Shown in pieces: positions 2 to 63,463 of a stretch of DNA of 64,000 bases. The first letter of the stretch is position 1. Every line of letters starts with the position of its first letter. Origin of the DNA: Anaerolineales bacterium. GTDB lineage: Bacteria > Chloroflexota > Anaerolineae > Anaerolineales > Anaerolineaceae. The DNA lies in assembly GCA_020060485.1 (NCBI GenBank), contig JAGVAB010000174.1:1-64000 (forward strand), read 5' to 3'. The notes under the pieces were generated by a model. It saw only the letters and a list, made by a program, of their open reading frames with translations. It made no database searches and was not told the origin of the DNA. The position numbers and the translations under genes are program-made.

Positions 2-700
2 TTGATGGCTTTCATGTCTTCATCCTTGAAAGTGGATCAAACCGTGACTGGCCTGGCTTTGAACATTTTTGCCAACGGTCTTGCTTTTTATGGCTACCGG
101 GTGGCTTTCAAACAATTTGTCAGCGAGAATTTGCCCACAGTACGAACTTTCCGGCCAGTGCCAATCCCTGTGTTGTCCCGTATTCCGGTGCTGGGCGAAA
201 CCTTGTTCACCCAGCACATATTGACCTATATGGCTTTGGTAATGGTGCCGGTGATCTATTTCTTCCTGTATCGCACCAAGTTCGGGCTTGAACTGCGCTG
301 TCTGGGAGAGAACCCGCGCGCAGTGGATATGCGCGGCATCAATATTCATCTTTACCAGTATCTGGCAGTTATCTTTGGCGGGATGATGGCTGGTTTGGGC
401 GGGGCTTTTTTGACCCTTGCATCAGCCGGTTTGTTCGTGCCCGATATTGCCGCTGGCCGCGGCTGGATCGCCATTGCGATTGTGATCTTTGGCGGCTGGA
501 AGCCTTTCCGCATTCTGGCGGCAGCCTTGTTCTTCGGTTTGCTTGACTCTTTTCAGCTTCAGGTGCAGGGAGTCGGAATTCAGTTCCCGTACCAACTGCT
601 GCTGGCTTTACCTTATGTTTTGACCATTGTGGCCCTGGTAGTGAGCCGCAATCGGCAGGGAGCGCCTTTGTCATTGGGCATCCCATACACCCGCGAATGA
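2..700 (+). CDS. Nucleoside-type ABC importer permease, 5' truncated by window edge
   Basis: Membrane permease of the BMP/nucleoside (YufQ/RbsC-like) importer family. Only the C-terminal 232 residues are present; the frame is open at the left edge, and comparison with the second permease at 14443-15438 suggests about 95 residues are missing. The two share the pattern ending in GENPRA/GENPAA, then a glycine-rich helix, then GRGWIAIAIVIFG versus GKGWIAVALVIFA and a final LLALPYVLTI. Several hydrophobic helices are visible. It is followed after 51 bases by a methyltransferase gene on the same strand, so an importer operon enters the window from the left. The family call is firm; the substrate is inferred. 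Confidence 0.88.
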   Translation: MMAFMSSSLKVDQTVTGLALNIFANGLAFYGYRVAFKQFVSENLPTVRTFRPVPIPVLSRIPVLGETLFTQHILTYMALVMVPVIYFFLYRTKFGLELRCLGENPRAVDMRGINIHLYQYLAVIFGGMMAGLGGAFLTLASAGLFVPDIAAGRGWIAIAIVIFGGWKPFRILAAALFFGLLDSFQLQVQGVGIQFPYQLLLALPYVLTIVALVVSRNRQGAPLSLGIPYTRE

Positions 701-751
701 CTGGTCCTTTAAACCTCGGATTCGCATAATTATTGACTGGAGGATAAAGAA

Positions 752-1813
752 ATGTCACAGAACGCTTTGATCGACCTGGTACAGGGAATGGACCATTTAC
801 CTGTGGTTCCGTTGCTGGGCTTCCCCGGCGCGCAAACCACCAACAGCACAGTGCGCCAGAACATGTTTAATTATGGTTTGCATTTTCGCTCACTGATGAA
901 TCTGGTCAAACGCTACAAACCGGATGCGCTATTCATGATGATGGATCTTTCCCTGGAGATTAATGCTCTGGGCGGGCCGGTGCGCTATGATGAGTTTGCC
1001 GCCCCCAGTGTGCTCGATCATATGGTGGTTGATGAAGCAGGTTTGGAGTCTTTATACAAGATCAACATTCGCCAGGATGCGCGTATCAACGCTTACCTGA
1101 AAACGCTGGGCCTGATGATCAAATATTTCAATGTCATGCCAGCGGCTTATGTGATTGGCCCCTTCACTCTGGCATCCCATTTGCTGGGCGCCAGCAAGGC
1201 GGCCAAAGCCACCATCAAGAATGTGGATTTTCTGCACAAAGTGCTGGACTTTACTGTGGGTGTGATCAAAGACCATGCGGCCATGTTAACCGAAGCCGGG
1301 GCGGAGATGATCTGCGTGCTGGAGCCAAGCGCAATGGGTGTTTCTCCGGCGTCCTTTGATGAATTCTCAAAGCCATATTTGCAGCGCATTTATGAAGGTT
1401 TTACAACCTATTCCGTGCTGCACATTTGCGGCAACACAACGCACCTGGTGGAGAACATGGCTCTTTCGGGCGCGCAGGGTTTGAGCCTGGATAGGGGCAC
1501 TGACCTGGTAGCGGCTGCCGAGAAGGTATCCGACAAAGTGGTCATTATCGGCAATGTGCCGCCGGTGCATGTGGTTCTGGAGCAGACCCCCAAAGATGTT
1601 TACGATTTCACTGTTGATTTGATGCACAAGATGTCACCTTTCAAGAATTTCATCCTTGCGACTGGCTGCGATCTACCTCCAGATACTCCGCTGGATAATA
1701 TTCAGGCGATGATGAATGCCGGCCGCGGGTTGCCTCTCGATGCCCGCCCCGAATATCCGGATGCGTTGAAAGAGGACGAGCAGGCCATTCTGGCAGCATT
1801 GGAACAAGCCTGA
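752..1813 (+). CDS. MtaA/CmuA-family (uroporphyrinogen decarboxylase-like) methyltransferase
   Basis: A 353-residue TIM-barrel protein of the UroD/MtaA/CmuA family. In corrinoid methyl-transfer systems such proteins are the second methyltransferase, moving a methyl group from methyl-cob(III)alamin to a thiol or to tetrahydrofolate. The zinc-binding pattern is visible as H224-x-C226 (in HICGN) and C306 (in TGCDLPPDTP), which argues for a methyltransferase and against haem biosynthesis. GGAGG lies just before the ATG. It is the first of a run leading into two corrinoid-activation proteins, and the likely corrinoid partner is at 15481-16152. The acceptor cannot be read from sequence; tetrahydrofolate is more plausible than coenzyme M in a bacterium. 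Confidence 0.85.
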   Translation: MSQNALIDLVQGMDHLPVVPLLGFPGAQTTNSTVRQNMFNYGLHFRSLMNLVKRYKPDALFMMMDLSLEINALGGPVRYDEFAAPSVLDHMVVDEAGLESLYKINIRQDARINAYLKTLGLMIKYFNVMPAAYVIGPFTLASHLLGASKAAKATIKNVDFLHKVLDFTVGVIKDHAAMLTEAGAEMICVLEPSAMGVSPASFDEFSKPYLQRIYEGFTTYSVLHICGNTTHLVENMALSGAQGLSLDRGTDLVAAAEKVSDKVVIIGNVPPVHVVLEQTPKDVYDFTVDLMHKMSPFKNFILATGCDLPPDTPLDNIQAMMNAGRGLPLDARPEYPDALKEDEQAILAALEQA

Positions 1814-1865
1814 GGTTCACTGGTATTAATGGGTTAATGGTGATGATTGATTACAAGGTTGAAGC

Positions 1866-2594
1866 ATGACGGTTGACAAGCAGCATATTATTGTTAATGG
1901 TTGGGATCTCCCGCTGAGCGTGGACCAGGTTATCTGGAGCCAGGGGGCAGATCCCGCCGTCATGCGCCAGCGCCGGCCGCAGGTTGTGCGCATAGCCGAA
2001 GATGTCGTGCAGCAGGAAGCAGGACATCTGGCGCCGGTGCTGCTCTACCGGCGCATCCCGGTGAAAGGTTTCTGGCATAATCGGCTGGAGTTGGAAGGCG
2101 GCAGTACATTGCAAGGGCAGGTGCTGGCCGAGAATCTGGCTGCGGCTGAGGAGATCGTGATTGCCATTTACACTGTGGGCGAGACTTTGGATGAGCGCCT
2201 GACGTTGGCGATGAAGGGGCGTTTGCCTTATGCTCTGGCGCTGGATGCCCTGGGAACGGCAGCTGTGGATGAGTTGGGGCGGCAGGTGCAGGCCCATTTT
2301 AAAAGCCTGGCACAGGTGGATGGCAAAAAGGTTAGCATGTGTTTCAGTCCGGGTATGTTGGGCTGGGAACTGGCAGAAGGACAGTTGCAAATCTTTGACC
2401 TGATTGATGCCGGGCTGATCGGGGTGCATGTGGCAGATACTGGCCGCATGACGCCGCGCAAGACGATTTCGGCCATTTTTGGCCTGGGAAGTATGTTGAC
2501 GGATAAACCAGTTTCACCCTGCGAGTTTTGCGCTGTGCAGGATCATTGTCAGTATCGAGGAAGATATGGCGAATTTGCCGCACTTCACAATTGA
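1866..2594 (+). CDS. MetH activation-domain-like corrinoid-associated protein
   Basis: 242 residues resembling the vitamin B12-dependent methionine synthase activation region, which binds S-adenosylmethionine during reductive methylation of cob(II)alamin. The characteristic stretch FSPGMLGWELAEGQLQIFDL is followed by a GV-x-(9-12)-M-x-P-x-K-(S/T)-x-SAIFGLG-type segment (MTPRKTISAIFGLG). The C-terminus carries C219-x2-C222-x5-C228, a possible metal or Fe-S site. Stand-alone proteins of this kind occur beside corrinoid methyltransferases and RACE proteins. Its end overlaps the start of the RACE gene by 29 bases, implying translational coupling. An exact role as SAM-dependent reactivator is inferred from context. 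Confidence 0.8.
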   Translation: MTVDKQHIIVNGWDLPLSVDQVIWSQGADPAVMRQRRPQVVRIAEDVVQQEAGHLAPVLLYRRIPVKGFWHNRLELEGGSTLQGQVLAENLAAAEEIVIAIYTVGETLDERLTLAMKGRLPYALALDALGTAAVDELGRQVQAHFKSLAQVDGKKVSMCFSPGMLGWELAEGQLQIFDLIDAGLIGVHVADTGRMTPRKTISAIFGLGSMLTDKPVSPCEFCAVQDHCQYRGRYGEFAALHN

Positions 2595-4407
2595 TCTGGA
2601 GCCAATCGGCAGCCGCGCGGAGATCAGCGGGGAAGAGTCCCTGCTGCACGCGGCCCAACTGGCCGGAGTCCATCTCACCGCAGTTTGCGGTGGGGCGGGC
2701 GTGTGCGGCAAATGCCGGGTGCGGGTCATCAGCGGCGAAGTAACTCGGCCCAACGCCGCCGAGAGAAAAATTTTCAGCCAGCAGGAGCTGGATCAAGGAT
2801 ACCGCCTGGCTTGTGAGACCAGGCCGCTTTCAGACGTCAAGCTGCATTTGCCATCTGAATCATTGACCACCACCCAGCGTTTGCAGGTGGAAGGCAGGGA
2901 GACCCGCATAGCGACTGCACCGGTAGTAACAGGTCTGGATCTGGAGATGGAAGCGCCCAGCCTGGGCGATTTGCGTTCAGATATGGTGCGATTACAGGAT
3001 GCCTGCCGCCAGGCTGGCCGGGTTAATTTGCGGGCTGGACTGCCGGTATTGGCAGACCTTTCTGACCGGCTGCGCCAGATGAACTGGCGTTTCAGGCTGG
3101 TGTTGGCCGAGGATGAGATCGTGGCCGTGCTGCCTTACGGCCAAACGTTGTATGGCCTGGCAGTGGATATTGGCACAACAAAAGTGGCTGCTTATCTGGT
3201 CAATTTGGAAGACGGACAGACTGTGGCCATGACCGGCGCAATGAATCCGCAGGTGGCTTATGGCGAAGATGTGGTCAGCCGGATTGCTTATGTCAATGAA
3301 AGCCCGGATCACAAGACAGCCATGCAGCAGACGTTAATCGATACGCTGAACGTGATGACAGCCCGACTGTGTGAAGAGGGCGGCGTGAGCCGGGAACAAA
3401 TTGTGGATGCAGTGGTGGTGGGAAACACCGCCATTCATCACCTTTTCCTGGGACTGCCGGTTTTGCAGTTGGGCATGTCTCCCTTCATTTCGGCGGTCAG
3501 CCAGGCCATTCAGGTCTCGGCGGTTGAATTGGGTTTGAAGATGGCGCCAGGCGCAATGGTTTACTTGCCGCCCAATATCGCCGGTTATGTAGGGGCGGAT
3601 CATGTTTCCGTGTTGCTTGCCAGCCGCCTTTTGGACGAGAAACGTACTGTGATCGCCTGCGACATCGGCACCAACACCGAGATCAGCATCACTCATCAAG
3701 GTCAGGTTTGGAGCTGTTCCTGCGCTTCCGGCCCGGCATTTGAGGGCGCACACATCAGCGCCGGGATGCGTGCAGCCCCTGGTGCGATTGAACGGGTCAA
3801 GATTCTGGATGGCAAGGTGCGCATCAATACCATTGAGGATCAGCCGCCGGTGGGCATTTGCGGTTCGGGCATTCTGGATGCCATCTCGGAAATGTTTTCG
3901 GCCGGAATGTTAAAAACCAGCGGTGCTTTTACCCAGGGACATGCCCTGGTGCGAAACGATAAACGCAAAGGCGAGGTTTTGCTGGCTGATGAATCTGTCA
4001 GCGGGCATCACCGCCAGATCGTGGTAACGCGTAATGACGTGAATGAGATCCAGCTTGCGAAGGGTGCCATCCGCACTGGCATTGATGTTTTGATGGAAAT
4101 GGCCGGTGTTGATGAAAAAGAGATCGATATGTTCATTCTGGCTGGAGCTTTTGGCACGTATATCGATGTGGAAAGTGGGATCAACATTGGCATGTTTCCC
4201 GATCTGCCGAGCGAGCGTTTTGTGCAGGTAGGGAATGCGGCTGGAATGGGCGCAAAAGAAATGTTGATCTCTAAAAAAATGCGGTTGATGGCTGAGCAAA
4301 TTGCGCAAAAAGTGGCATATATCGAATTGACGACTTACCCTCGCTTTACCCACAAGTTTGCCAAAGCGATGTTTTTTCCTGAAACACAGGGAGCAGGTGA
4401 AGGGTAA
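2566..4407 (+). CDS. RACE protein: [2Fe-2S]/ASKHA reductive activator of corrinoid enzymes
   Basis: 613 residues with an N-terminal plant-type [2Fe-2S] domain (C41, C47, C50, C83), a middle domain and a C-terminal ASKHA ATPase-like domain starting near residue 200 (VDIGTTKVAAYLV) with a second phosphate-loop-like motif (ACDIGTNTEISI). This is the architecture of reductive activators of corrinoid-dependent enzymes (DUF4445/RACE family), which return inactive cob(II)alamin to cob(I)alamin with electrons from the Fe-S cluster. The ATG lies inside the preceding gene. Together with the neighbouring methyltransferases it makes the methyl-transfer system self-sufficient. Family confidence is high; the specific partner, the protein at 15481, is inferred. 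Confidence 0.92.
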   Translation: MANLPHFTIDLEPIGSRAEISGEESLLHAAQLAGVHLTAVCGGAGVCGKCRVRVISGEVTRPNAAERKIFSQQELDQGYRLACETRPLSDVKLHLPSESLTTTQRLQVEGRETRIATAPVVTGLDLEMEAPSLGDLRSDMVRLQDACRQAGRVNLRAGLPVLADLSDRLRQMNWRFRLVLAEDEIVAVLPYGQTLYGLAVDIGTTKVAAYLVNLEDGQTVAMTGAMNPQVAYGEDVVSRIAYVNESPDHKTAMQQTLIDTLNVMTARLCEEGGVSREQIVDAVVVGNTAIHHLFLGLPVLQLGMSPFISAVSQAIQVSAVELGLKMAPGAMVYLPPNIAGYVGADHVSVLLASRLLDEKRTVIACDIGTNTEISITHQGQVWSCSCASGPAFEGAHISAGMRAAPGAIERVKILDGKVRINTIEDQPPVGICGSGILDAISEMFSAGMLKTSGAFTQGHALVRNDKRKGEVLLADESVSGHHRQIVVTRNDVNEIQLAKGAIRTGIDVLMEMAGVDEKEIDMFILAGAFGTYIDVESGINIGMFPDLPSERFVQVGNAAGMGAKEMLISKKMRLMAEQIAQKVAYIELTTYPRFTHKFAKAMFFPETQGAGEG

Positions 4408-4408
4408 A

Positions 4409-5185
4409 ATGACGAAGAAAGCATCCGCCTTTCAGGAAATCTCCAGCGGCATTGCCGCCAAACGGGCTGCTCAGGGCTGCATGGCAATCTGGCCGGTGGC
4501 TTCTTTGGAGCAGCACGGTCCGCACCTGCCCCTGGGCACAGACGCCCTGGTGTTGGACGCTTTGGTCTCTGCTTGCCGCGAAGAATTGGGAGAAGCTTTT
4601 CGGGGTGTTTTTCTGCCTACTTTGAATTATGGCAAAAGTCCGGAGCATTTGCACTTCGCCGGGACGGTCTCCTTGCAGTCAACCACCTTGCTGGCATTGG
4701 TCGATGACATGACAGCCAGCCTGGCGCGGCATGGTTTCCGTCATTTTGTATTCTTCAACGGACATGGCGGCAACGCAGCCTTGCTGCAGGCGGCGGCTTT
4801 TGACCTGCGCGCCAAATATGATGTGCTTGTTTACAATCTGGATTTGTGGGGCGGCGGTTTCTTCCGCTCGATGATAGCTGAATATTTCCCATCGCTGGTT
4901 GGCAGGGAAGTGCATGCCGCTTCAGCAGAAACTGCATTGATGCAGTATTTGTACCCGGCGCTGGTTGGCGATGTGCCCGTGGTGGAAGTTCCGCAGAAGG
5001 ACACAGATGGTCTGTCACATGGCTGGCTGGCCGAGGATTTTCATTCTTCCGGGGTGATTGGTAATCCCGCCCTGGCGAACGCCGCAATTGGTGCGCAGAT
5101 TTTTGCAGATGCAGTGCAGAAGGCAAGTCAATTGCTGCGTGATCTGGAATTACAGATTTCTACATTAACCTTAGGAGGATATTAA
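4409..5185 (+). CDS. Creatininase-family amidohydrolase
   Basis: 258 residues of the creatininase superfamily, metal-dependent hydrolases that open cyclic amides (creatininase) or hydrolyse formamides of purine and pyrimidine breakdown products. Conserved metal ligands appear as E34, H36 and D45 in the EQHGPHLPLGTD segment, followed by the NGHGGN motif and a late HAASAET motif. I chose the ATG at 4409 because GGTGAAGGG precedes it; an upstream in-frame ATG at 4358 would overlap the RACE gene by 50 bases and adds an unconserved extension. The stop overlaps the next start (TAATG), so it is translationally coupled to the deaminase. The substrate is unknown; a nitrogen heterocycle or its ring-opened product fits the context. 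Confidence 0.87.
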   Translation: MTKKASAFQEISSGIAAKRAAQGCMAIWPVASLEQHGPHLPLGTDALVLDALVSACREELGEAFRGVFLPTLNYGKSPEHLHFAGTVSLQSTTLLALVDDMTASLARHGFRHFVFFNGHGGNAALLQAAAFDLRAKYDVLVYNLDLWGGGFFRSMIAEYFPSLVGREVHAASAETALMQYLYPALVGDVPVVEVPQKDTDGLSHGWLAEDFHSSGVIGNPALANAAIGAQIFADAVQKASQLLRDLELQISTLTLGGY

Positions 5186-6573
5186 TGAGTACCTTGCTGG
5201 TCAAGAATGCAGAAGTGGTCATCACTATGGATCAGGAACGCAGACAGATTCGCAATGGCGGTATTTTTGTACGCGATAATGTGATTGAAAAAGTCGGCCC
5301 CATGACGGAACTGCCCGTTGATGCCGATCGGGTGATCGATGCTCAGGGGATGGCCGTCCTGCCTGGTCTGGTCAACACCCACCATCATTTTTACCAGACC
5401 TTAACCAGAGCCGTTCCCGGCGCTGAGAATCATAAACTGTTTGACTGGCTGGTACGCCTGTATCCGATCTGGGGCGAGATGGGTGCTGAAGAAGTGTATG
5501 TCAGCACCAAGACCGCCATGGCCGAGATGATCCTTTCCGGCTGCACCACCAGCAGCGACCATCTTTATCTTTACCCGCATGATGCCACCTTTGGTGATCA
5601 GGTGCGGGCTGCGCAAGAGATCGGCATGCGTTTCCATCCCACACAAGGATCGATGTCGCTCGGTCGCAGCAAGGGCGGTTTGCCGCCGGATCATGTGGTC
5701 AAAGATGAAGACGTGATCCTCAAGGAAAGCCAGCAGATCATTGAGAAATATCACGATGCCAGCCAGTATTCGATGCTGCGGGTCACACTGGCCCCCTGCT
5801 CACCGTTCTCGGTCACGCCCGACCTGATGCGCGAGTCGGCCATCCTGGCACGCAGCTTTGACAAAGTCCAATTGCACACCCACGTGGCAGAAACCATGGA
5901 CGAAGAATCCTTCACCATGCGCGATTTTGGCTTGCGGCCAGCGCGGTTGATGGAAGATTTGGGCTGGGTCGGACCAGATGTATGGTGGGCGCACAGCATT
6001 TTCGTCAACGATGACGAGATACGAATGATGGCTGAAACCGGCACTGGTGTTGCCCACTGCCCGTCTTCCAACATGCGCCTGGGTTCCGGTATTTGCCGGG
6101 TGCGCGAATTGCTGGATGCCGGTGTGAATGTCAGCCTGGCCGTGGATGGTTCAGCCAGCAATGACTCTTCGAATATGTTTGAAGAAGCCCGCCATGCTCT
6201 TCTGCTTCAGAGAGTCAAATACGGTGCGGAAGCCTTCACTGTCCAGGATGCGCTGGATATCGCCATCCTCGGCGGGGCCAAGGTGCTGGGGCGGAATGAC
6301 ATCGGCGTTCTTGAACCAGGTTACGCGGCTGATTTCATCGGTGTAAACCTGAATACGCTTAGCTTGTCCGGCGGTGCAGTGCATGATCCGCTTTCCTCAT
6401 TATTGTTGTGCTCGGTTAACCGGGTGGACTTCTCGGTGATCAATGGCAAGGTGATCGTTGAGGATGGCGAAATGCAGACCCTTGATCTAGAGTCTCACAT
6501 CGCTCATCACAATGAGCTTGCCCGCAAGATGGTTGCCAAACACCCTGAACCGGAGCGTTTCAAGTTGGTATAA
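5185..6573 (+). CDS. 8-oxoguanine deaminase-like amidohydrolase
   Basis: 462-residue metallo-dependent hydrolase of the ATZ/TRZ-like deaminase group. Visible ligands are H66 and H68 (NTHHHFYQTLTRA), H233 and E236 (LHTHVAE), H270 and D321 (AVDGSASNDSSNM). The combination HCPSSNMRLGSGI plus DGSASNDSSNM is typical of bacterial 8-oxoguanine deaminase (8-oxoguanine to urate and ammonia); related enzymes deaminate guanine, isoxanthopterin, s-triazines or creatinine, so the substrate is a prediction. GGAGG sits before the ATG and the gene overlaps the creatininase stop. Next to BMP-type importers and a molybdenum hydroxylase it supports purine or heterocycle catabolism. Confidence 0.85.
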   Translation: MSTLLVKNAEVVITMDQERRQIRNGGIFVRDNVIEKVGPMTELPVDADRVIDAQGMAVLPGLVNTHHHFYQTLTRAVPGAENHKLFDWLVRLYPIWGEMGAEEVYVSTKTAMAEMILSGCTTSSDHLYLYPHDATFGDQVRAAQEIGMRFHPTQGSMSLGRSKGGLPPDHVVKDEDVILKESQQIIEKYHDASQYSMLRVTLAPCSPFSVTPDLMRESAILARSFDKVQLHTHVAETMDEESFTMRDFGLRPARLMEDLGWVGPDVWWAHSIFVNDDEIRMMAETGTGVAHCPSSNMRLGSGICRVRELLDAGVNVSLAVDGSASNDSSNMFEEARHALLLQRVKYGAEAFTVQDALDIAILGGAKVLGRNDIGVLEPGYAADFIGVNLNTLSLSGGAVHDPLSSLLLCSVNRVDFSVINGKVIVEDGEMQTLDLESHIAHHNELARKMVAKHPEPERFKLV

Positions 6574-6672
6574 GTTGTCTGACCAGCCCCAGTCAAAAAA
6601 ATGCGATGGGCTGCGTATAGTCAATCAAGCGGCATGATAGAAAATGACGGAAAACATGTGGAGACAGTTAAA

Positions 6673-7323
6673 ATGATCCAAAAATTAGAATTGCGGCAAG
6701 GCGGCCAGGCGCTCAGAATGGACATGGATGTGCTGCTGGATGATGTTTATGCCCAGCCGGGACTGCCTGAGGCCGTCAAGCAGGCCCTGAGTGGGGCAGT
6801 AAGTTGGCAGCAGCGCAGTGAGACGACTCTGGCTCGCTTCCTGGCTGGCCCCAGTCAGTTTCCGGCTTTGGTGTTGGCCTTGCTGGTTTGCGATACGCTG
6901 GTTTTGACTGATAGTGCCCAGCAGGGCATGGATATGCATGATTATTTTCTGGCCAGAGATCGGCAGGAACCAATGGCTTTGGTGGTGCCGGTTGTTGTGC
7001 TGGGGCGTAAACTTTCTGCTGCCCGGGTAGGCTTGACACCAACCGGGGAGGGGATCGTTCTGGCAGCTGCGGCAGTCACGATTGAGGATGGGCTGGTTAA
7101 AAACGCCCGCCTGGCGTTGAACGGGGTTTGGAAGAAAAAGCAATGGATGAGTGTGGCAGCGGATAAACTGGTTGGTGCACCTTTGAGCGATGAAAGGATT
7201 CAATCTGTGGTAACGGTTATAATGACCGAGGTTGATCCTCCTTCCGATCATCTCGGCAGTGCGGCATATCGCCGGGCAATGGCAGGTGTTATGACCCGCC
7301 AGGTTTTGGAAGCGTGCAGGTAG
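6673..7323 (+). CDS. Truncated FAD-binding subunit-like protein of a molybdenum hydroxylase
   Basis: 216 residues from the ATG at 6673, which has GGAG nine bases upstream; ATG 6601 is in frame but lacks a site. It resembles only the second half of the xanthine dehydrogenase/CO dehydrogenase medium (FAD) subunit. A segment SWQQRSETTLARFLAGPSQ stands where iRn-aTlGGN normally is, and the end DHLGSAAYRRAMAGVM matches the C-terminal domain. The usual N-terminal subdomain with the AGGT flavin-binding loop is absent, and the family is normally about 280-300 residues. It ends 10 bases before the fused large subunit. It may bind no flavin and act as a scaffold, or contact another electron carrier. 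Confidence 0.62.
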   Translation: MIQKLELRQGGQALRMDMDVLLDDVYAQPGLPEAVKQALSGAVSWQQRSETTLARFLAGPSQFPALVLALLVCDTLVLTDSAQQGMDMHDYFLARDRQEPMALVVPVVVLGRKLSAARVGLTPTGEGIVLAAAAVTIEDGLVKNARLALNGVWKKKQWMSVAADKLVGAPLSDERIQSVVTVIMTEVDPPSDHLGSAAYRRAMAGVMTRQVLEACR

Positions 7324-7333
7324 AGAGGCAGAC

Positions 7334-10240: not shown

Positions 10241-10252
10241 TTATGTTCGTCG

Positions 10253-10290
10253 CCGGTGGGCATTTCGCAACCTTTGCAAATGCCCACCGG
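10253..10290. repeat. Perfect 13-bp inverted repeat
   Basis: CCGGTGGGCATTT at 10253-10265 and its exact complement AAATGCCCACCGG at 10278-10290 enclose a 12-base loop. It begins 12 bases after the stop of the molybdenum hydroxylase gene. No T-run follows on either strand, so it is not a standard terminator; a second small hairpin (GGCCGCAAGGCC) follows at once. It may be an extragenic palindrome, a mRNA 3' stabiliser or a protein-binding site. Confidence 0.7.
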
Positions 10291-10373
10291 GAAAACGGCC
10301 GCAAGGCCGCCACATATGTACAGGGGCACCATAGAAGGACAGATGTACACATTTTCCAAGGTTTGTTGTTGTA

Positions 10374-10404
10374 CTTGCAGGCTGTGGTCTGCAAAGGGTT
10401 TTTT
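10374..10404 (+). terminator. Weak candidate terminator or attenuator
   Basis: CTTGCAG and CTGCAA(A)G pair around an 8-base loop and are followed by GGGTTTTTT. The stem is short, so termination may be partial. It lies between the hydroxylase gene and the downstream importer operon. Confidence 0.35.
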
Positions 10405-10709
10405 CGGGATGTGATCTGCCCAAAGCTGAATATCAGACAACGGCTAACAAGTCTGTGAAAGCCCAAAGCAACCTATAAGGTTGATAGTCCATAAAGAAAA
10501 AGGAGGTGACCGGCACAAGAGTATGATTACTGAATAAGGTTGTTTTGTGAGCTATGCTTGCTTTGCAGACACTCTCTGCCGGTGGACCAGGATGGAAGGG
10601 CTTTCAACCGTTCTGCAGTAAATATCCTGGACAGCGTTCCAGGGAAGGGTCATTCAGGGCAAGACAGCACATCAATCGTCAAGAAACAGATAACTTTCAG
10701 GAGAAGAAA

Positions 10710-11750
10710 ATGAAATCCGTAAAGTACATCGTATTTGCCAGCTTGCTTGTTCTTGCTTTAGTGCTCTCTGCTTGTAAACCCGCTGCTCCTGCGGCCCCTG
10801 CAGTTGAAGCCCCGGTGGCAGAAGATGCCCCGGCAGCAGTTGAACCTGAACCGGAAGCCTCTCTGGCAGTGGTTTTGACCGGCCCATGGGACGATAACAG
10901 TTGGAATGAAGCAGGTTATTTGGGGATGAAGGCCTTGGGCGAGCAGGGTGTGAAGGTTGCATTCTCAGAGAATGTTGGCGATGGGGATGCCCAGCGCGTC
11001 ATTCGCGAGTATGCCGAACAGGGATACAAGATGATCGTAGCCCATTCATTCGGTTATCAGGATGCTGTCTTTGCTGTTGCTCCTGAATATCCCGGAACGA
11101 ATTTTGCCTGGGGCGGCGGGATTGGCCGCACGGACAAGAACATTGCCGATTACGACCAGCCCTTCTACGAGGCTGCTTATCCAATTGGTGTGATTGCCGG
11201 TTACATGAGCGAAAGCGGTGTTCTGGGCGCCATTTACGGCTTCGATATCCCGGTCTGCCATGCCATGGGTGAGGCTTTCCTGGCTGGCGCCAAGAGTGTC
11301 AACCCGAATGCGACCTTGATTGCCACTGCTGCCGGGGACTGGGTGGATGTTGCCAAGTCCAAGGAAGCTGCTCTGGCGCAGGCGGATGCCGGCGTTGATT
11401 TCTGGATCGAATGCGGCGAAGGCCCGGCTCTGGGTGCGATTGCGGCTGCCGAAGAAGTAGGCGGTTACGTGACTGGTTATGTTGGCGATATGACCGAAAA
11501 TGGTCCGGATGTCGTGCTGGTGAACCTGATCTGGAACCTGGAACCCATGTTTGCTGATATGTTGAACATGACCATGTCCGGCACTTTTGACAATCCTTTC
11601 TATCGCTATGGTGTCGCAGATGGCGCCATGCTGTATAACTATAATGAAGGTTTGAAGAGCAAGATCCCGGCGGAAGCCATCGCAGCCGCTGAAGCTGCCT
11701 TCAAGGCCATTGCAGCCGGTGAGCTGGTTGTTGAGTTTGTGCCTGAATAA
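10710..11750 (+). CDS. BMP-family substrate-binding lipoprotein (purine nucleoside-type)
   Basis: 346 residues from the ATG at 10710, preceded by AGGAGAAG. It has a type II signal peptide with lipobox LSAC (Cys22) and a Pro/Ala/Glu-rich linker, followed by the BMP/PnrA-like periplasmic-binding domain (LTGPWDDNSWNEAGYLG, an AHSFGY segment, GGGIGRTDKNIADYD, VGDMTENGP). BMP proteins of this type usually bind purine nucleosides and feed the ATPase and two permeases encoded just downstream. The 470-base space upstream suggests its own promoter. Binding of a modified purine or other heterocycle is inferred from the catabolic neighbours. Confidence 0.9.
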   Translation: MKSVKYIVFASLLVLALVLSACKPAAPAAPAVEAPVAEDAPAAVEPEPEASLAVVLTGPWDDNSWNEAGYLGMKALGEQGVKVAFSENVGDGDAQRVIREYAEQGYKMIVAHSFGYQDAVFAVAPEYPGTNFAWGGGIGRTDKNIADYDQPFYEAAYPIGVIAGYMSESGVLGAIYGFDIPVCHAMGEAFLAGAKSVNPNATLIATAAGDWVDVAKSKEAALAQADAGVDFWIECGEGPALGAIAAAEEVGGYVTGYVGDMTENGPDVVLVNLIWNLEPMFADMLNMTMSGTFDNPFYRYGVADGAMLYNYNEGLKSKIPAEAIAAAEAAFKAIAAGELVVEFVPE

Positions 11751-11831
11751 GAATAGACTGTAACAGAATGCGGCGTCCCCAAGACGACGGGGACGCCGCA
11801 AATCGGAAAACTTTGTAAAAAGGATGTGACC

Positions 11832-13394
11832 TTGAACCAAGTAAACGAAACCATTCTGGAAATGCGGGGTATCGTCAAGAAATTCCCTGGCGTTGTGGCG
11901 AATGACGGTGTGGATTTCGAACTGCGTAAAGGGGAAATTCATTCCCTGCTAGGTGAAAACGGCGCTGGCAAGACGACCCTGATGAATGTATTGTATGGCT
12001 TGTACGAACCGGAAGCGGGGGAAATCCTGCTCAACGGCAAGCCTGTTCAGTTCAAGTCTGCGCGGGATGCGATTACCCAAGGTTTGGGCATGGTTCATCA
12101 GCATTTCATGCTTGTGCAGCGGTTCACAGTGGCGGAAAATATCATTCTGGGGCAGCATTCCCCGCGGGAACCTCGCATTGAGGATCAAAAAGCGGTGTAT
12201 GACCGCCTGAAGGCCTTGTCAGATCGTTATTGCTTATCGATTCATCCGGACGCTGAAGTATGGACCCTTTCGGTGGGGGAGCAGCAGCGGGTTGAGATAT
12301 TAAAAGCCCTGTATCGCGGCGCAGAAATCCTGATCCTGGATGAGCCAACCGCGGTATTGACTCCCCAGGAAGCCGAACAACTCCTTGAAATATTGCGCGT
12401 TTTGACCAGAGAAGGCAAGTCGGTTGTCTTCATTTCGCACAAGCTGAATGAGGTGCTGGCAGTCAGCGACCGCATCACGGTATTGCGGGATGGGAGGGTT
12501 ATCGACACCGTGGAGGCCAGATTGACCGAGCAAAAAGGTCTGGCATGCATGATGGTTGGGCGCGATGTGATCTTACAGGTTTCCAAATCCCCGGCGCAAC
12601 CCCAAGAGATGGTCTTAAAAATTGAGGGATTATGTGCCAATGATGATCGTGAATTACAAGCGTTGTATGACATTGATCTGGATGTGCGAGCGGGCGAAAT
12701 CCTTGGCATTGCTGGTGTGGCTGGCAACGGCCAATCCGAGCTGGAGCAGGTGATTGCCGGATTGCGCAAGGCAACCCGCGGGCAGGTGACCATCTGTGGC
12801 AAGGATGTGACCAATTCCTCCCCGCGTGAAGTGGGCTGCTGTGGTCTGGCGCACATTCCTTCGGACCGCTATCGCATGGGTTTACTGTCTGATTTCAGCA
12901 TCGCCGAGAATTTGGTGCTGCAGCGTATAGGTGAAAAGCCTTTCACCAAACGCGGTTGGTTAGATTGGAAGGCCATCCGCCAGCAGGCGGAAGAACTGGT
13001 GCAATCGTTTGATGTGCGTACGCCGTCGGTGGAATTGGCGGCAGGTAAATTATCCGGCGGCAATGCGCAGAAGATGATCCTGGCGCGTGAATTGGCCCGC
13101 CAGCCACGGGTATTGATCTCCGCCCAGCCAACGCGTGGTCTGGATGTGAGTGCCATCGAATATGTTCACCGGCAGCTGATCGCCCAACGTGATGCAGGGG
13201 TTGCGATCCTGTTGTTCTCCACAGAATTACAGGAGATCATGACCCTGTCTGATCGAATTGCGGTGATGTATGAAGGCCGGATTGTGGGCATGGTGGACAG
13301 CAGCCAGGCTGATGTGTTTGAAATCGGGATGATGATGGCTGGCGGCAAGGAGCTTCCTCCTTGCGAAATTGTGGGTACAGGAGTTTCGGTATGA
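11832..13394 (+). CDS. ABC importer ATPase with two nucleotide-binding domains (nucleoside/sugar type)
   Basis: About 520 residues with two tandem ABC domains. The first has Walker A GENGAGKTT, signature LSVGEQQR and Walker B ILILDEPTAVLTP. The second has the degenerate loop GVAGNGQSELEQ and signature LSGGNAQKM, with ISAQPTRGLDV replacing a normal Walker B, as in RbsA-like and BMP-linked ATPases. Two starts are possible: GTG at 11826 sits only one base from AAGGA, whereas TTG at 11832 has it at seven bases, so I prefer TTG. It energises the permeases that follow with ATGA overlaps. Confidence 0.93.
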   Translation: MNQVNETILEMRGIVKKFPGVVANDGVDFELRKGEIHSLLGENGAGKTTLMNVLYGLYEPEAGEILLNGKPVQFKSARDAITQGLGMVHQHFMLVQRFTVAENIILGQHSPREPRIEDQKAVYDRLKALSDRYCLSIHPDAEVWTLSVGEQQRVEILKALYRGAEILILDEPTAVLTPQEAEQLLEILRVLTREGKSVVFISHKLNEVLAVSDRITVLRDGRVIDTVEARLTEQKGLACMMVGRDVILQVSKSPAQPQEMVLKIEGLCANDDRELQALYDIDLDVRAGEILGIAGVAGNGQSELEQVIAGLRKATRGQVTICGKDVTNSSPREVGCCGLAHIPSDRYRMGLLSDFSIAENLVLQRIGEKPFTKRGWLDWKAIRQQAEELVQSFDVRTPSVELAAGKLSGGNAQKMILARELARQPRVLISAQPTRGLDVSAIEYVHRQLIAQRDAGVAILLFSTELQEIMTLSDRIAVMYEGRIVGMVDSSQADVFEIGMMMAGGKELPPCEIVGTGVSV

Positions 13395-14446
13395 GCAAAA
13401 CCTTGGAAGACAGCCAGGAGAAGCGCCTTTCACATGTTCTTCTCTCGATCGGTGCGCCGATCATGGGGTGTTTGATCGGTTTGGTGATTGGCGTCTTTTT
13501 GATCCTTCTGGCAAACGCAGACCCGTTGAGTGCTTACCAAACCATGTTCAAGGGCGCGTTTGGCAGCCAGCGTCAATTTACAGAGACGGTACTGAAAGCC
13601 GGGCCATTGCTTTTGATTGCATTGGGTTTGACCACGGCATTTCGGGCCAAAATCTGGAACATTGGCGCTGAAGGTCAGTATTACATGGGTGCTTTATTTG
13701 GCGGTGTTGTTGCATTGTATCTGACCGACCTGCCTCGCCCTTTGTTGATCACGGTCATGCTGCTGGCGGCTGTGGTTGGTGGAATGATTTGGGGATGGAT
13801 CCCGGCCATGCTCAAAGTGAAGACCGGCATGAACGAGATCATCTCAACCTTGATGTTGAACTATATTGCCATTTTGTTGATGGAATACCTGGCACGCGGC
13901 CCCTTGCAGGAACCTGGCGGTTATTTACCGATGAGTGCCCAGTTTGACAGAGTGACCAGACTGCCTTTGTTGTTCGGCACACGCGTTCACCTGGGTGTTT
14001 TGATCACCCTGGTGCTGGTACCCATCATTTATGTCCTGTTGTGGTCAACACCGCTGGGGTTTCGGGTGCGGGCGGTTGGCTCTCGGGCGTCAGTGGCCCG
14101 ATACGCCGGCGTGCAGGTGGAGAAGATCATCATCTTTGTGCTGGTTCTGAGCGGCGGCATCGCCGGTCTGGCAGGCATTATTGAGGTGGCTACCTTGCAT
14201 ACCCGGTTGAAATCCGGCATATCACAAGGCTATGGTTTTAGCGCCATTCTGGTCGCTTTGCTGGGCCGGATGAATCCTGTCGGAGTTACCGTGGCGGCAA
14301 TCTTTTTTGCGGCGTTGATCATCGGCTCGGAAGCTATGCATGTGGTCTACGGCCTGCCGGTTTCACTGGCAGACGCCATTCAGGCCATCATTGTGTTGTC
14401 CGTGCTGGCAGTGGATGCCCTGGTGAGAAGGAGGATGAACGCATGA
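13391..14446 (+). CDS. Nucleoside-type ABC importer permease (first subunit)
   Basis: 351 residues, about eight to ten hydrophobic helices, of the BPD_transp_2 (RbsC/YufP-like) family. Typical stretches are TAFRAKIWNIGAEGQYYMGA near the N-terminal third, MNEIISTLMLNYIA, and GFRVRAVGSRASVARYAGV with YGFSAILVALLG. The ATG overlaps the ATPase stop (ATGA) and lies 30 bases inside the longest open frame; the overlap decides the start. It pairs with the next gene to form the membrane channel. Confidence 0.92.
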   Translation: MSKTLEDSQEKRLSHVLLSIGAPIMGCLIGLVIGVFLILLANADPLSAYQTMFKGAFGSQRQFTETVLKAGPLLLIALGLTTAFRAKIWNIGAEGQYYMGALFGGVVALYLTDLPRPLLITVMLLAAVVGGMIWGWIPAMLKVKTGMNEIISTLMLNYIAILLMEYLARGPLQEPGGYLPMSAQFDRVTRLPLLFGTRVHLGVLITLVLVPIIYVLLWSTPLGFRVRAVGSRASVARYAGVQVEKIIIFVLVLSGGIAGLAGIIEVATLHTRLKSGISQGYGFSAILVALLGRMNPVGVTVAAIFFAALIIGSEAMHVVYGLPVSLADAIQAIIVLSVLAVDALVRRRMNA

Positions 14447-15438
14447 ATTGGGAATTGATCCTGCAATGGGCGTTCTTGATTTCGCTGCTTAATGCCGGCA
14501 TCCGGCTGGCAGTACCGATCCTGATCGCTGTTTTGGGCGAGATCATCACTGAAAGCTCGGGGGTTACCAACCTGGGGCTGGAAGGGATCATGTCCATCGG
14601 GGCGGTGACGGGCTTTATGACAGCCTTTTATTTCAAGACCCATCCGCTGATCCCGCAAGGGAGCGAATGGAGCACCTGGATCGGTCTGGCCGCGGGTATG
14701 CTGGCCGGGATGTTGATGGGGTTGATCATGGCCGCTCTTTCCGTTACTTTACGGGCGGACCAGATCATCAGCGGTATCACCCTGGTCGTATTTGGCGTCG
14801 GGCTTTCAAATTATTTGTATCGTCAGGCATTTTCGACATTGAGTGAACGGGTAGTGGGCCTCAAGCCATTGGAAATCCCCTTATTAAGCAAGATACCAGT
14901 GGTAGGCGATGTATTGTTCAAGCAGGTACCCACGGTTTATATGGCCGGACTGCTGGTTTTGATAGTCTGGTATTTTCTGTTCAAAACCACCTGGGGCTTG
15001 AAGATCCGTTCGGTGGGAGAGAACCCGGCAGCTGCTGAAACGTCTGGCATCAGTGTGGAGCGCACTCGCTACGCAGCCATCATCCTGGGTTCTGGCCTGG
15101 TGGGTTTGGCCGGGGCGGTGTTGACCGTTGTGCAGCTTACGCTTTTCCGGGAAGGTATCGTGGCCGGGAAAGGCTGGATTGCGGTGGCTCTGGTCATCTT
15201 CGCCCGCTGGCGTTATCCGGGGCGGGCCCTGCTTGGGTCATTGTTGTTTGGGTTGGCAGATTCATTGCAATACCGCATTCAGGCTCTGAGCCAGGTGGAT
15301 CGCGGCGCACAGACCGTCCCCTATGAATTTTTATTGATGCTGCCTTATGTGTTGACCATCCTTGTTTTGTTGAAGCGCGCCAAGGGTAACGAAGAACCGG
15401 CTGCGCTAGGAAAAGCATATGTCAAAGGAGAGCGGTAA
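14443..15438 (+). CDS. Nucleoside-type ABC importer permease (second subunit)
   Basis: 331-residue permease, partner of the preceding one and overlapping it by four bases (ATGA). It carries the family stretches SSGVTNLGLEGIMSIGA, KIRSVGENPAAAETSGI and GKGWIAVALVIFARW. It is a clear paralogue of the truncated permease at the left window edge, so two BMP-type importers flank the catabolic genes. The stop is followed after 42 bases by the corrinoid protein gene, suggesting that transporter and methyl-transfer proteins share one transcript. Confidence 0.92.
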   Translation: MNWELILQWAFLISLLNAGIRLAVPILIAVLGEIITESSGVTNLGLEGIMSIGAVTGFMTAFYFKTHPLIPQGSEWSTWIGLAAGMLAGMLMGLIMAALSVTLRADQIISGITLVVFGVGLSNYLYRQAFSTLSERVVGLKPLEIPLLSKIPVVGDVLFKQVPTVYMAGLLVLIVWYFLFKTTWGLKIRSVGENPAAAETSGISVERTRYAAIILGSGLVGLAGAVLTVVQLTLFREGIVAGKGWIAVALVIFARWRYPGRALLGSLLFGLADSLQYRIQALSQVDRGAQTVPYEFLLMLPYVLTILVLLKRAKGNEEPAALGKAYVKGER

Positions 15439-15480
15439 TCGCTGTCTATATTAAACCAATGTTGGTATGGAGAGGACAAA

Positions 15481-16152
15481 ATGACGATCTCACAGGATAA
15501 GATTCAGGAACTTCAGGCAAAGATCAGAGAAGCCGTGGCCGATTACGATGGCGCGGAAATTGGAATTCCCGTGACTCAACAAGCACTGGATGAGGGGATC
15601 ACCCCTGTGGAATTTTTTCAGGAAGTTATCAGCCCGGTGGTCGAAGAAGTTGGCGACCAGTTCGCCAAGCTGGAGATCTTCCTGCCGGAGTTAATGGTGG
15701 CTGGAATGGTGATCAAGCAGATTCAGGAGAAGGTGCTCGAGCCCGCCATCAAGGCGACCCATACTGGCAGCGGCAGCATGGGCAAAGTGGTAATTGGCAC
15801 CTGCCAGGGTGATCTGCATGATATTGGCAAGGATATGGTGGCCTTAATGCTGCAGGTGAATGGCTTTGAAGTGGTTGACCTGGGCACCGACAATGCTCCG
15901 CAGAAATTCATCGAAGCGGCCAAGAGTGAGAAGGCAGACATCATTGCCATGTCTGCCTTGTTGACACCTTCAGTGCCGTATATCTCGGATGTTTCCAAAT
16001 TGCTGGCAGGTTTTGGTATTCGCGAACAATTCAAGATCATTGTGGGTGGTGCGGCGGTCACCCAGCAATGGGTGGACAGGAACGATGTTGACGGTTATGG
16101 CCGGGATGCAGTGGAAGCTGTTGAGATCTGCCGTTCGATCATGAAGGCGTAA
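15481..16152 (+). CDS. Methyltransferase corrinoid protein (MtbC/MtmC-like)
   Basis: 223 residues: an N-terminal helical cap (B12-binding 2, about residues 10-90) followed by a Rossmann-like cobalamin-binding domain with D111-x-H113-x2-G116 (CQGDLHDIGKDMV). His113 would be the lower axial ligand. Later GTDNAPQKF and the SALLTPSVP stretch match the family. Such proteins shuttle the methyl group between a substrate methyltransferase and a second methyltransferase. It lies 14 bases upstream of the MtmB-like gene, as mtmC does with mtmB in methanogens. The MtaA-like protein at 752 and the RACE protein at 2566 are its probable other partners. Confidence 0.94.
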   Translation: MTISQDKIQELQAKIREAVADYDGAEIGIPVTQQALDEGITPVEFFQEVISPVVEEVGDQFAKLEIFLPELMVAGMVIKQIQEKVLEPAIKATHTGSGSMGKVVIGTCQGDLHDIGKDMVALMLQVNGFEVVDLGTDNAPQKFIEAAKSEKADIIAMSALLTPSVPYISDVSKLLAGFGIREQFKIIVGGAAVTQQWVDRNDVDGYGRDAVEAVEICRSIMKA

Positions 16153-16166
16153 AGGGAAGGAACCCC

Positions 16167-17546
16167 ATGTACAATACCACACGTTTACTGGATATTTTAG
16201 ACCGGGTGGAAAGCGGCCCGATCATTGAGGAATCAAAATGGGATATGTTGATGGTGCCGGGCGAGATCCGCAAGGCACAAAAGGAATTCGACATTGATTT
16301 CAAGCGACTGAACGGGACACTGGTGCCGGATGATGACGACCTGGCTGACCGCATCTATGCCGCCGGGCGGGCAGTGGCCGAGCGATTGGGGGCGTTCTGT
16401 GTAACCACCTCACGGCAGGTTTTGTTCAGCGGTCAGGAAATTGACGCCGCACTGGCTCTGGCACCCACTGAAGTGACCTATGGTGAACGACCCGACCTGC
16501 ACACCGAGCGCAAGCGCAAGATCGAAGATACCCAGCACATGACCATCAAAGGCGGTGGGGTTGGCACTGTTCTGCCAGAGGATATTTACCTGGAAGTTCA
16601 TCAATCTTATGCCCAGGAATCGCTGGTTGATACGATGATCAACTGCACCCTGGAAAGCATTTATGGCCGTGATATTCGCAGCCGGTCGGCCTGGGAGATC
16701 CTCAGCGGCTGGCATGAGTACGAGCTGACCAAGGCCGCCAGGGTGCGGGCTGGCCGGCCAGGCATGGCTGTGGGCTGTGTGGAGAACGCAGTTTCCGAAC
16801 TTTCGGAAATTTCAGCCACGTCTTATGGCGGCTTTAGCCGTTATGACTGGCATCACATTGCCATGATCTCCGAGTTCAAGACTGATTATGGCTCATTGTC
16901 CAAGCTGACTCACCTGATCCGCACGGGCAGCATCATTCACTCGTTCTACAATACCATCTATGGCGGCACGGTTGGCGGCAGCGAAGGTGTGGCGATCGCC
17001 ATCGTAACCGGCATGATCATGCTGCAAATGATGTACATGACCAATACCCACTCGGTTTCTCCGGCGCATCCTTTCTATGGCAACGATACCACGCCCGAGA
17101 TCCTGCGCTCGATCAGTGTTGCCCACCAGGGTTTGGCCCGCAACAGCCGCCTGATGACAGACATGGTGCTAACCCCTGTTAATGGTCCAGGGACAAAGGA
17201 ATTGCTTTACGAAGTGGCAGCCATGACCGTGATGGGCGCTGCCTCGGGCACCTGCGCCATGATTGGCCCGCGCTCGAATGCCGGGGTACACAATGGCAAT
17301 GTTTCCGGCCTGGAGGCGCGTTTCATGGCTGAAGTTGGTCATGCTGCGGCGGGCATGCCGCGCAAACAGGCCGATGAGCTGGTGACCTGGCTGGTTGACA
17401 AATACAAAGACACACTGGACAAGCGTCCAATTGGCAAGCATTTTACGGAAGTGTATGACCTTAAGACCGTCAAGCCCAAACCGGAATGGCTGGCGATGTA
17501 CGAAGAGGTCAAGGATGAATTGCGCGCCAGAGGGCTGGCTTTGTAA
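16167..17546 (+). CDS. MtmB-family methyltransferase lacking pyrrolysine
   Basis: 459 residues, matching the length and pattern of monomethylamine methyltransferase MtmB (about 458 residues, known from methanogens). Recognisable blocks are KARVRAGRPGM-type residues 191-200, ENAVSELSEISATSYGG, the late AASGTCAMIGPRSNAGVHN with SGLEARFMAEVGHA, and the end GKHFTEVYDLKTVKP. In methanogen MtmB the residue after RPGMGV is pyrrolysine, encoded by UAG. Here the aligned codon (residue 203, bases 16773-16775) is GGC, Gly, followed by Cys204, and the gene has no in-frame UAG. It is therefore a non-pyrrolysine relative whose substrate need not be methylamine. AAGGGAAGG precedes the ATG; a strong terminator follows. 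Confidence 0.88.
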   Translation: MYNTTRLLDILDRVESGPIIEESKWDMLMVPGEIRKAQKEFDIDFKRLNGTLVPDDDDLADRIYAAGRAVAERLGAFCVTTSRQVLFSGQEIDAALALAPTEVTYGERPDLHTERKRKIEDTQHMTIKGGGVGTVLPEDIYLEVHQSYAQESLVDTMINCTLESIYGRDIRSRSAWEILSGWHEYELTKAARVRAGRPGMAVGCVENAVSELSEISATSYGGFSRYDWHHIAMISEFKTDYGSLSKLTHLIRTGSIIHSFYNTIYGGTVGGSEGVAIAIVTGMIMLQMMYMTNTHSVSPAHPFYGNDTTPEILRSISVAHQGLARNSRLMTDMVLTPVNGPGTKELLYEVAAMTVMGAASGTCAMIGPRSNAGVHNGNVSGLEARFMAEVGHAAAGMPRKQADELVTWLVDKYKDTLDKRPIGKHFTEVYDLKTVKPKPEWLAMYEEVKDELRARGLAL

Positions 17547-29757: not shown

Positions 29758-29768
29758 GATGACTGCTC

Positions 29769-30302
29769 CTAAGCGCCAAAGCGGGAAAGCTGGGTGAGGT
29801 CTGGCAGGCGCCCTTCCACCAGTTCGGTGAGGACATAGTAAATGGTATCGGCTGAGGGCGGGCAGCCCGGGATGAAGAGGTCAACCTTGACGTAGGTATG
29901 CAGGGGGAAGGCGCGTTCATTCAAACGGGGCACAACTACGGTGGGTATTTGGGGCTGGATGGCATTGCTTTGCAGGTAAACAGCTTCCATCATTTTCTGG
30001 GCGCCTATAGGATTGCGCATGGAGGGAATATTGGCGGTGACGGCACAGTCACCAAAGGCTGCCAGAATGCGGGTGCTTTGGCGTATCTTGCGGATCTTTT
30101 CTTCATCCTCGTTGGTGCTGACCGCACCTTCCACCAGGGTGATGTCCACGTTTTTGGGGAATTCTTTGGTATCCACCAGCGGGCTGAAGACCACTTCCAC
30201 TTTGTCGGCCAGGTCGATCAGGCGTTGGTCAATATCCAACAAAGACATATGACAGCCAGAGCAGCCATCCAGCCAGATAGTTGCTAATCGAATCTTTTTC
30301 AT
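29769..30302 (-). CDS. hoxY: [NiFe] hydrogenase small subunit
   Basis: 177 residues, the short form typical of HoxY. It has the proximal [4Fe-4S] ligands in WLDGCSGCHMSLLD, a later AFGDCAVTANIPSMRN and IPGCPPSADTIYY. There is no Tat signal, so the enzyme is cytoplasmic. Its start overlaps the hoxU stop by one base. It passes electrons between HoxH and the diaphorase subunits. Confidence 0.95.
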   Translation of the reverse strand: MKKIRLATIWLDGCSGCHMSLLDIDQRLIDLADKVEVVFSPLVDTKEFPKNVDITLVEGAVSTNEDEEKIRKIRQSTRILAAFGDCAVTANIPSMRNPIGAQKMMEAVYLQSNAIQPQIPTVVVPRLNERAFPLHTYVKVDLFIPGCPPSADTIYYVLTELVEGRLPDLTQLSRFGA

Positions 30303-33157: not shown

Positions 33158-33198
33158 TTTTCTTTCCTCGGCTTGGTGTTGGTTAGGTTGATTGAGGA

Positions 33199-61909: not shown

Positions 61910-61967
61910 TTATTTCCTTTTCGCAGTTATATGAACCTGAGTTGCGGAGGATTAAATCGCGTTTATC

Positions 61968-62074: not shown

Positions 62075-62093
62075 AATTATTTTGCATTTCAGG

Positions 62094-63404: not shown

Positions 63405-63463
63405 GGGGGAGTTTCACCTTTGCATTTTGGCTATGATATGGAAAAGAAACCTGCCAGTCGGTC

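Follow-up and report, generated by a model that had tools for sequence, protein, structure and literature searches.

An importer-linked, pyrrolysine-free MtmB-family methyltransferase in an Anaerolineales bacterium and its possible role in anaerobic demethylation of N-heterocycles

A 64,000-nucleotide stretch of DNA from an Anaerolineales bacterium (GenBank assembly GCA_020060485.1, contig JAGVAB010000174.1, positions 1 to 64,000; hereafter the window) encodes a pyrrolysine-free member of the MtmB methyltransferase family. The same region, positions 752 to 17546, carries genes for its cognate corrinoid protein, a URO-D/MtaA-like second methyltransferase, a corrinoid reactivator, a BMP-type ATP-binding cassette (ABC) importer, a creatininase-family hydrolase, an 8-oxoguanine deaminase and a molybdenum hydroxylase (Table 1). 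This inventory, first drawn up from the letters alone (the sequence-only reading), is confirmed, and all genes in 2-17546 share the same orientation on the (+) strand. Genes for importer, corrinoid protein and MtmB recur side by side among relatives. We propose that the system imports a planar N-heterocycle, most likely of the purine type, and demethylates it at nitrogen through anaerobic corrinoid chemistry, a tentative reading whose probability falls a little short of an even chance.

In the proposed pathway, the importer would bring into the anaerobic cell a small, planar, methylated N-heterocycle, most likely a purine-type base methylated at nitrogen. The MtmB-family enzyme would then move the methyl onto the corrinoid protein of the adjoining gene while that protein is in its Co(I) state, and the URO-D/MtaA-like enzyme would hand the methyl on to an acceptor, which is more likely a thiol than tetrahydrofolate. 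A RACo-type protein, perhaps together with a MetH-like protein, would re-reduce oxidised corrinoid. The demethylated base may then be hydroxylated at carbon by the molybdenum enzyme and deaminated, the order of these later steps being provisional.

An initial scan of genome contigs returned one relative, L001 (38% identity), in which genes for a BMP protein, a corrinoid protein and two MtmBs stand in a row. Its genome, G001, carries seven MtmB genes on six contigs, and on all six the MtmB locus includes at least one BMP importer, xanthine-dehydrogenase (XDH)-type or amidohydrolase gene when the window's proteins are used as queries. Among 192 relatives of G001, two carry MtmB genes, one of them being G001 itself; MtmB genes also occur in 6 of 400 genomes from the phylum of genome G104 and in 27 of 396 genomes from the class of genome G566. 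We read 46 MtmB stretches, or 45 loci after two were joined, and a corrinoid gene is present at 37 of these. Left out of the counts were L039 (a 3.3-kb contig), L054 and L085 (MtmB fragments), and the overlapping second reads L044, L045, L047 and L088.

The window's protein falls inside a supported clade of 26 sequences (100/98) in a 72-row MtmB tree. Fourteen members of this clade are BMP-linked (the window, five read directly at four loci, and eight assigned by equal contig size and source), 11 are of unknown context, and the single member lacking a BMP gene comes from G797, whose contig ends 99 bases past MtmB. Two partial MtmBs outside the tree, from G784 (62 residues, 60% identity) and G965:C320 (70%), are both BMP-linked. 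Among the eight directly read loci of the clade, BMP importer, corrinoid protein and MtmB occur together in six (G566, G824, G402, G784, G965:C320 and G001, the last from another phylum); the contigs of the remaining two (G797 and G965:C512) end beside MtmB. Equal contig size and source is indirect evidence of linkage. Among the matches listed, MtmB and BMP genes share eight longest-contig sizes and sources, including seven of at least 5 kb, for which shifted sizes give an expectation of 0.09.

A second MtmB clade of seven sequences (100/100) is BMP-linked in five of them. In G566, G784 and G824, a second-clade MtmB lies in the same row as one of the first clade, giving two methyltransferases per importer, and such pairing suggests that two methyl groups are taken off one after the other. 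By locus, two MtmB genes at one BMP importer are recorded in L046, L083, L113, L001 and L042, and those in the first three come from two different clades.

The association was compared with two sets of loci from genomes that also have MtmB, namely 33 arbitrary loci (486 kb, at fixed positions of chosen contigs rather than a random draw) and 20 MttB loci (294 kb), against 650 kb for the MtmB loci. With the window's proteins as queries, a BMP gene is found at 11 of 45 MtmB loci versus none of the arbitrary loci (p 0.0013) and none of the MttB loci (p 0.011), Fisher values that overstate independence because the MtmB loci share ancestry. Any of the BMP, XdhD, deaminase-like or creatininase genes is present at 22/45, 2/33 and 2/20 loci, respectively, and at 16/38, 2/33 and 2/20 once the loci of G001 and G007 are set aside. 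RACE-type reactivator genes accompany 5 of the 45 MtmB loci, 1 of the 20 MttB loci and none of the arbitrary ones.

XDH-type enzymes also lie beside more distant MtmBs in G402, G001, G1025 and G965:C401. The G402 MtmBs (52% and 50%) are followed by two such enzymes and an amidohydrolase, and near the G001 MtmBs are a hydantoinase that scores above its cut-off and SsnA/TRZ-ATZ-type amidohydrolases that score below theirs. The importer-methyltransferase coupling and these N-heterocycle genes both favor the earlier suggestion that a methylated heterocycle is imported, although the identity of that substrate stays a matter of inference. At another locus, L048 (G402:C24), genes for MtmB, a corrinoid protein, a DUF6282 protein, a branched-chain-type importer and a creatininase-family protein form a row, a further candidate for a demethylation unit, here served by another type of importer.

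The MtmB protein matches the PF05369 profile over its full length and has a TIM-barrel fold. Its gene (16167-17546) contains no in-frame TAG, which separates it from MtmB proper with pyrrolysine at position 202; this position is Gly in all 25 clade sequences examined (the 26-row clade without G001C272_1). The Methanosarcina MtmB/MtmC/MtbA system has Glu259, Gln333 and Tyr335 at what we take to be the partner positions of Pyl202. The window's protein carries Gly, Phe, Val and Thr at these four sites, and aromatic residues conserved in the clade lie close to the Pyl202 position in sequence. A methylamine-specific MtmB is rejected because there is no pyrrolysine codon. An MttB-type system is rejected by both profile and fold: MtgB-type systems are likewise non-pyrrolysine corrinoid methyltransferases, but the MttB superfamily shares merely 10-12% identity with the window's MtmB in structure matches. 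MttB (PF06253) is itself greatly expanded in some genomes, with 22, 20 and 18 matches in G847, G870 and G821. MtmB relatives gave no match in plasmids and none in 10 candidate stretches of viral contigs. Genes of the DUF1611 family lie upstream of non-pyrrolysine MtmBs in L001 (G001; Pfam-tested) and L023 (G007; by inspection of the sequence only).

The BMP protein offers a view of the likely substrate class. Its best-scoring solved structures are the Brucella protein 3s99, with adenine modelled, and AtzT, with guanine. As described in the available part of the AtzT report, guanine is held between Tyr45 and Trp194 and is contacted by Ser97, Phe98, Glu165, Asn218 and Asn220 (PMC6834077). The window's protein has the fold family and aromatic sandwich positions of these purine-binding proteins in common, with Trp in place of Tyr45 and with Trp194, Ser97 and Phe98 kept; it differs at the polar contacts, where Glu165, Asn218 and Asn220 are replaced by Val, Cys and Glu. 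The signature Trp, Trp, Ser, Phe plus Val, Cys, Glu is identical in the window and in 15 of 15 binding proteins adjoining MtmBs from two Chloroflexota clades, seven from loci read directly and eight linked only by equal contig size and source. A planar ring with an altered, partly more hydrophobic edge would suit a methylated base.

The second methyltransferase has H224, C226 and C306, which match the motif HxC...C, presumably the Zn ligands of URO-D-type methyltransferases. The protein has the URO-D domain and this motif, and it scores under every listed cut-off of the MtaA/MtbA/CmuA models (138-157 bits versus 235-400; for MtbA, 118 versus 600). URO-D-type second methyltransferases with this motif act on a thiol, which in methanogens is Zn-bound coenzyme M (CoM), and bacterial tetrahydrofolate methyltransferases belong to a different family. 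Given the family and motif of the window's enzyme, the transfer to tetrahydrofolate envisaged earlier is doubtful, and the acceptor is more likely a thiol. No pterin-binding methyltransferase (PF00809) was noticed by eye among the listed open reading frames of the window, for which no PF00809 profile search was made. The reactivator has the Fer2, linker, middle and ASKHA C-terminal domains of RACo-type proteins, and it scores 463 bits with the AcsV model (cut-off 800) and 145 with the RamA model TIGR04270 (cut-off 500). The MetH-like protein has no Pfam match, and its predicted model (pLDDT 32) is unusable. Its homologues occur in 9 of 22 genomes, and 2 of 10 places have a corrinoid gene in the flank.

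Do the purine-type and importer-MtmB halves of this row belong together? A gap of 469 bases separates the molybdenum hydroxylase gene, which ends at 10240, from the BMP lipoprotein gene at 10710. Twelve bases 3' of the former lies a strong hairpin (-30.6 kcal/mol and z -4.97 for the segment 10241-10300); none of 200 shuffles folds as well, and it has no Rfam match. The terminator-like site at 10375-10394 is one of two in the stretch, one per strand, versus 0.4 expected in shuffles, and its own fold is unexceptional (z -0.72). No sigma-70-type promoter was found in 10200-10760. A riboswitch between the halves was considered and rejected: the sole Rfam match there (E 3.7) is read as chance, and no match in the whole window reaches its gathering score.

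Several points weigh against our proposal, the relatedness of the MtmB loci mentioned above being one. Because of the hairpin and the terminator-like site in the gap, the genes probably form two transcription units with their boundary at 10375-10394. Of the 396 genomes of the class, 313 contain the deaminase at E 1e-120 or better, mostly without MtmB. Twenty deaminase loci, hand-picked from the top-scoring places, all lack MtmB, corrinoid and RACE genes (XDH is present in two and BMP in three), and in G797 the deaminase and MtmB lie on different contigs. Among the matches listed, MtmB and deaminase share two contig sizes (4486 bases, and 5.4 Mb, which is uninformative on distance), and this is no evidence of linkage because some shifted controls also reached two. 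Neither the deaminase nor the molybdenum hydroxylase was found beside MtmB in G566:C207 (about 29 kb) or G824:C51 (14 kb); G784 (4.6 kb) and G965:C320 (6 kb) offer too little sequence to judge. XdhD alone is not significantly enriched (6/45 versus 1/33 and 1/20, p 0.12 and 0.3), and neither is creatininase alone (2/45 versus 0/33 and 0/20).

Other such points concern the two binding sites. The predicted importer ligand is not simply guanine, because the three polar guanine contacts of AtzT are replaced, and the signature is not shared by the G001 BMP proteins nor by two further BMP genes of L120, which lie 5-9 kb from the L120 MtmB. In the methyltransferase, a clade-specific Asp (D332) lies two residues away from one pocket position, and a pocket that bears aromatic residues would also fit a quaternary ammonium ion, the proven MtqB substrate type.

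The conservation check set by the sequence-only reading has a divided outcome, in that the importer-corrinoid-MtmB unit recurs through the clade and reaches a second phylum whereas the deaminase and molybdenum hydroxylase were not found beside it in the stretches read of G566 and G824. Conserved coupling of the deaminase to demethylation is not supported, and the deaminase is rejected as a marker of the MtmB cluster. The purine part of the proposal is plausible and rests on a variable linkage.

It is unlikely, in our estimation, that a purine uptake and degradation operon merely lies by chance beside an importer-MtmB operon for something else, with no joint pathway. The terminator-like features, the near-universal deaminase and the importer-MtmB loci of G566 and G824, whose stretches show no purine genes, all agree with such an arrangement. 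So does G810, one of the 20 deaminase loci, where deaminase, creatininase, two permeases, an ATPase and a BMP gene stand in a single row without MtmB. However, the window's only MtaA-like and reactivator genes lie in the purine half, between a permease and the creatininase gene. Because the G810 row resembles this half without the methyl-transfer trio, the URO-D, MetH-like and reactivator genes appear to be located within an uptake operon of that kind. In addition, molybdenum hydroxylases adjoin MtmB in G402 and G001, and deaminase and BMP genes share two contig sizes (12298 and 22601 bases) among the matches listed, versus 0.09 expected at 5 kb or more. The best evidence that both halves belong together is the permease upstream of the URO-D gene (2-700), which is 66% identical to the permease of G001:C257, the next best among the loci compared reaching 45%. 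In both the window and G001:C257, which are from different phyla, this permease is followed by a URO-D gene, and the G001:C257 row (amidohydrolase, BMP, ATPase, permease, permease, URO-D, CobW, corrinoid protein, MtmB) continues to the corrinoid protein and MtmB.

The mechanism could also be largely as proposed but with a methylated non-purine heterocycle as substrate, such as a pyrimidine, a pyridinium compound (N-methylnicotinate), or a ring of the hydantoin or creatinine type. Creatininase-family and hydantoinase-type genes each occur in 2 of the 46 MtmB stretches, NMT1/THI5-like binding proteins adjoin two G402 MtmBs, and the BMP protein is weakly similar to a putative B6 transporter model (110 versus a cut-off of 400). 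The creatininase-family protein of the window belongs to the PF02633 superfamily and falls well below the true creatininase model (TIGR04448, 99.5 versus 235). We nonetheless hold a non-purine ring to be improbable, since the best-scoring solved binding proteins bind purines and the window's deaminase scores above the cut-off of the 8-oxoguanine model. The molybdenum hydroxylase comes near the XdhA model NF043082 but stays below it (706.4 versus 780).

A substrate such as choline, tetramethylammonium or a comparable quaternary or simple methylamine, carried by the BMP importer and used as by MtqB, with the purine genes as unrelated neighbors, is quite unlikely: the sole characterized non-pyrrolysine MtmB, MtqB, does work on tetramethylammonium and choline (PMC13044021, as far as its available text goes), and the conserved aromatics near the Pyl202 position could make a cation-pi cage, but the solved structures of BMP relatives that score best contain purines, and ring-catabolism genes recur around other MtmBs.

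Table 1. Features at the start of the window, in order of position.
Feature	Coordinates	Strand	Basis
Last permease of an upstream BMP-type importer	2..700	+	BPD_transp_2, 102 bits; other importer genes outside the window
URO-D/MtaA-like second methyltransferase, Zn motif HIC...C	752..1813	+	PF01208, 191 bits
MetH-reactivation-like protein, C-terminal Cys motif (weak assignment)	1866..2594	+	1j6r, E=0.0022
RACo/AcsV-type corrinoid reactivator, 2Fe-2S domain	2566..4407	+	PF14574, PF17651, PF17650, PF00111
Creatininase-family amidohydrolase	4409..5185	+	PF02633, 210 bits, metal motifs; reading frame from 4358, likely start ATG 4409
8-oxoguanine deaminase	5185..6573	+	NF006055, 664.5 bits (cut-off 532); PDB 3hpa, 7ww2
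FAD-subunit-like protein, C-terminal domain only	6601..7323	+	PF03450, 55 bits
Molybdenum hydroxylase, FeS and Mo domains fused (XdhA/XdhD-like)	7334..10240	+	PF01799, PF02738, PF20256, PF01315
Strong hairpin 3' of the molybdenum hydroxylase gene	10253..10290 (ends approximate)	+	z -4.97
Terminator-like stem-loop followed by T6	10375..10394	+	terminator scan
BMP/PnrA-type substrate-binding lipoprotein	10710..11750	+	PF02608, 137.5 bits; lipobox; reading frame from 10554, likely start ATG 10710
ATPase of the BMP importer (ABC transporter)	11826..13394	+	46-71% identity to importer ATPases at other BMP-linked MtmBs
Permease A of the BMP importer	13361..14446	+	reading frame, comparison with relatives
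Permease B of the BMP importer	14443..15438	+	reading frame, comparison with relatives
Cognate corrinoid protein	15481..16152	+	PF02310, PF02607; DxHxxG
Pyrrolysine-free MtmB-family methyltransferase (core enzyme)	16167..17546	+	PF05369

Elsewhere in the window, positions 60324-64000 on the (-) strand encode in a row UbiX (above its cut-off), a UbiD-family decarboxylase (TIGR00148, 337 versus 245), an aconitase X large subunit and a DUF126 small-subunit protein (175.5 versus 163). This row is reminiscent of two enzymes of the archaeal-type mevalonate pathway, phosphomevalonate dehydratase and anhydromevalonate phosphate decarboxylase, and such a pathway would be uncommon among bacteria. A second row on the (-) strand (28333-33202) holds a NiFe hydrogenase large subunit closest to VhuA (383 bits, cut-off 800) and, by eye, NuoF/NuoE-like partners, and is consistent with anaerobic H2 metabolism.

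Within the MtmB family, MtqB (March 2026) provided the first function shown for any non-pyrrolysine member, and in the accompanying tree of 1,061 sequences the remaining non-pyrrolysine clades have no assigned function, according to the text available (PMC13044021). MtqB/MtqC of Methanococcoides methylutens Q3c and the window have in common a pyrrolysine-free MtmB-family gene with an adjoining cognate corrinoid gene. The methanogen system is archaeal and CoM-dependent, and the available portion of the report describes no BMP importer or ring-catabolism genes, unlike the window, and makes no mention of purine, xanthine, Chloroflexi, Chloroflexota or creatinine (PMC13044021). The accessible text of another study treats other SCMT clusters and does not mention MtmB, purine or xanthine (PMC10418091). 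In the open-access literature we found no paper on corrinoid- or cobalamin-dependent demethylation, or a corresponding methyltransferase, for caffeine, methylxanthine or methylated purines, nor any on monomethylamine methyltransferase with corrinoid in Chloroflexota or pyrrolysine MtmB in Anaerolineae.

The aerobic methylxanthine N-demethylases NdmABC do the same overall job, removing N-methyl groups from purines, as the proposed system would, a likeness in function. They are Rieske oxygenases that need O2. In its most far-reaching form, our proposal would make the pyrrolysine-free MtmB clade of Chloroflexota and at least one other phylum an O2-independent corrinoid N-demethylase of imported methylguanines or methylxanthines, in which MtmB pairs at one importer strip successive methyl groups, much as the aerobic caffeine demethylases do but under anaerobic conditions; this specific version is possible but rather unlikely.

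The arrangement in the window suggests a so far undescribed route, the anaerobic removal of methyl groups from purine-like rings by corrinoid enzymes. Pyrrolysine-free MtmBs are widespread, and the presence of an importer at a whole clade provides a direct handle on their function, as the ligand of the binding protein is a candidate substrate of the methyltransferase. If that ligand is a methylated purine, then anaerobes would have a means of processing methylated bases that come from RNA or are of the caffeine type.

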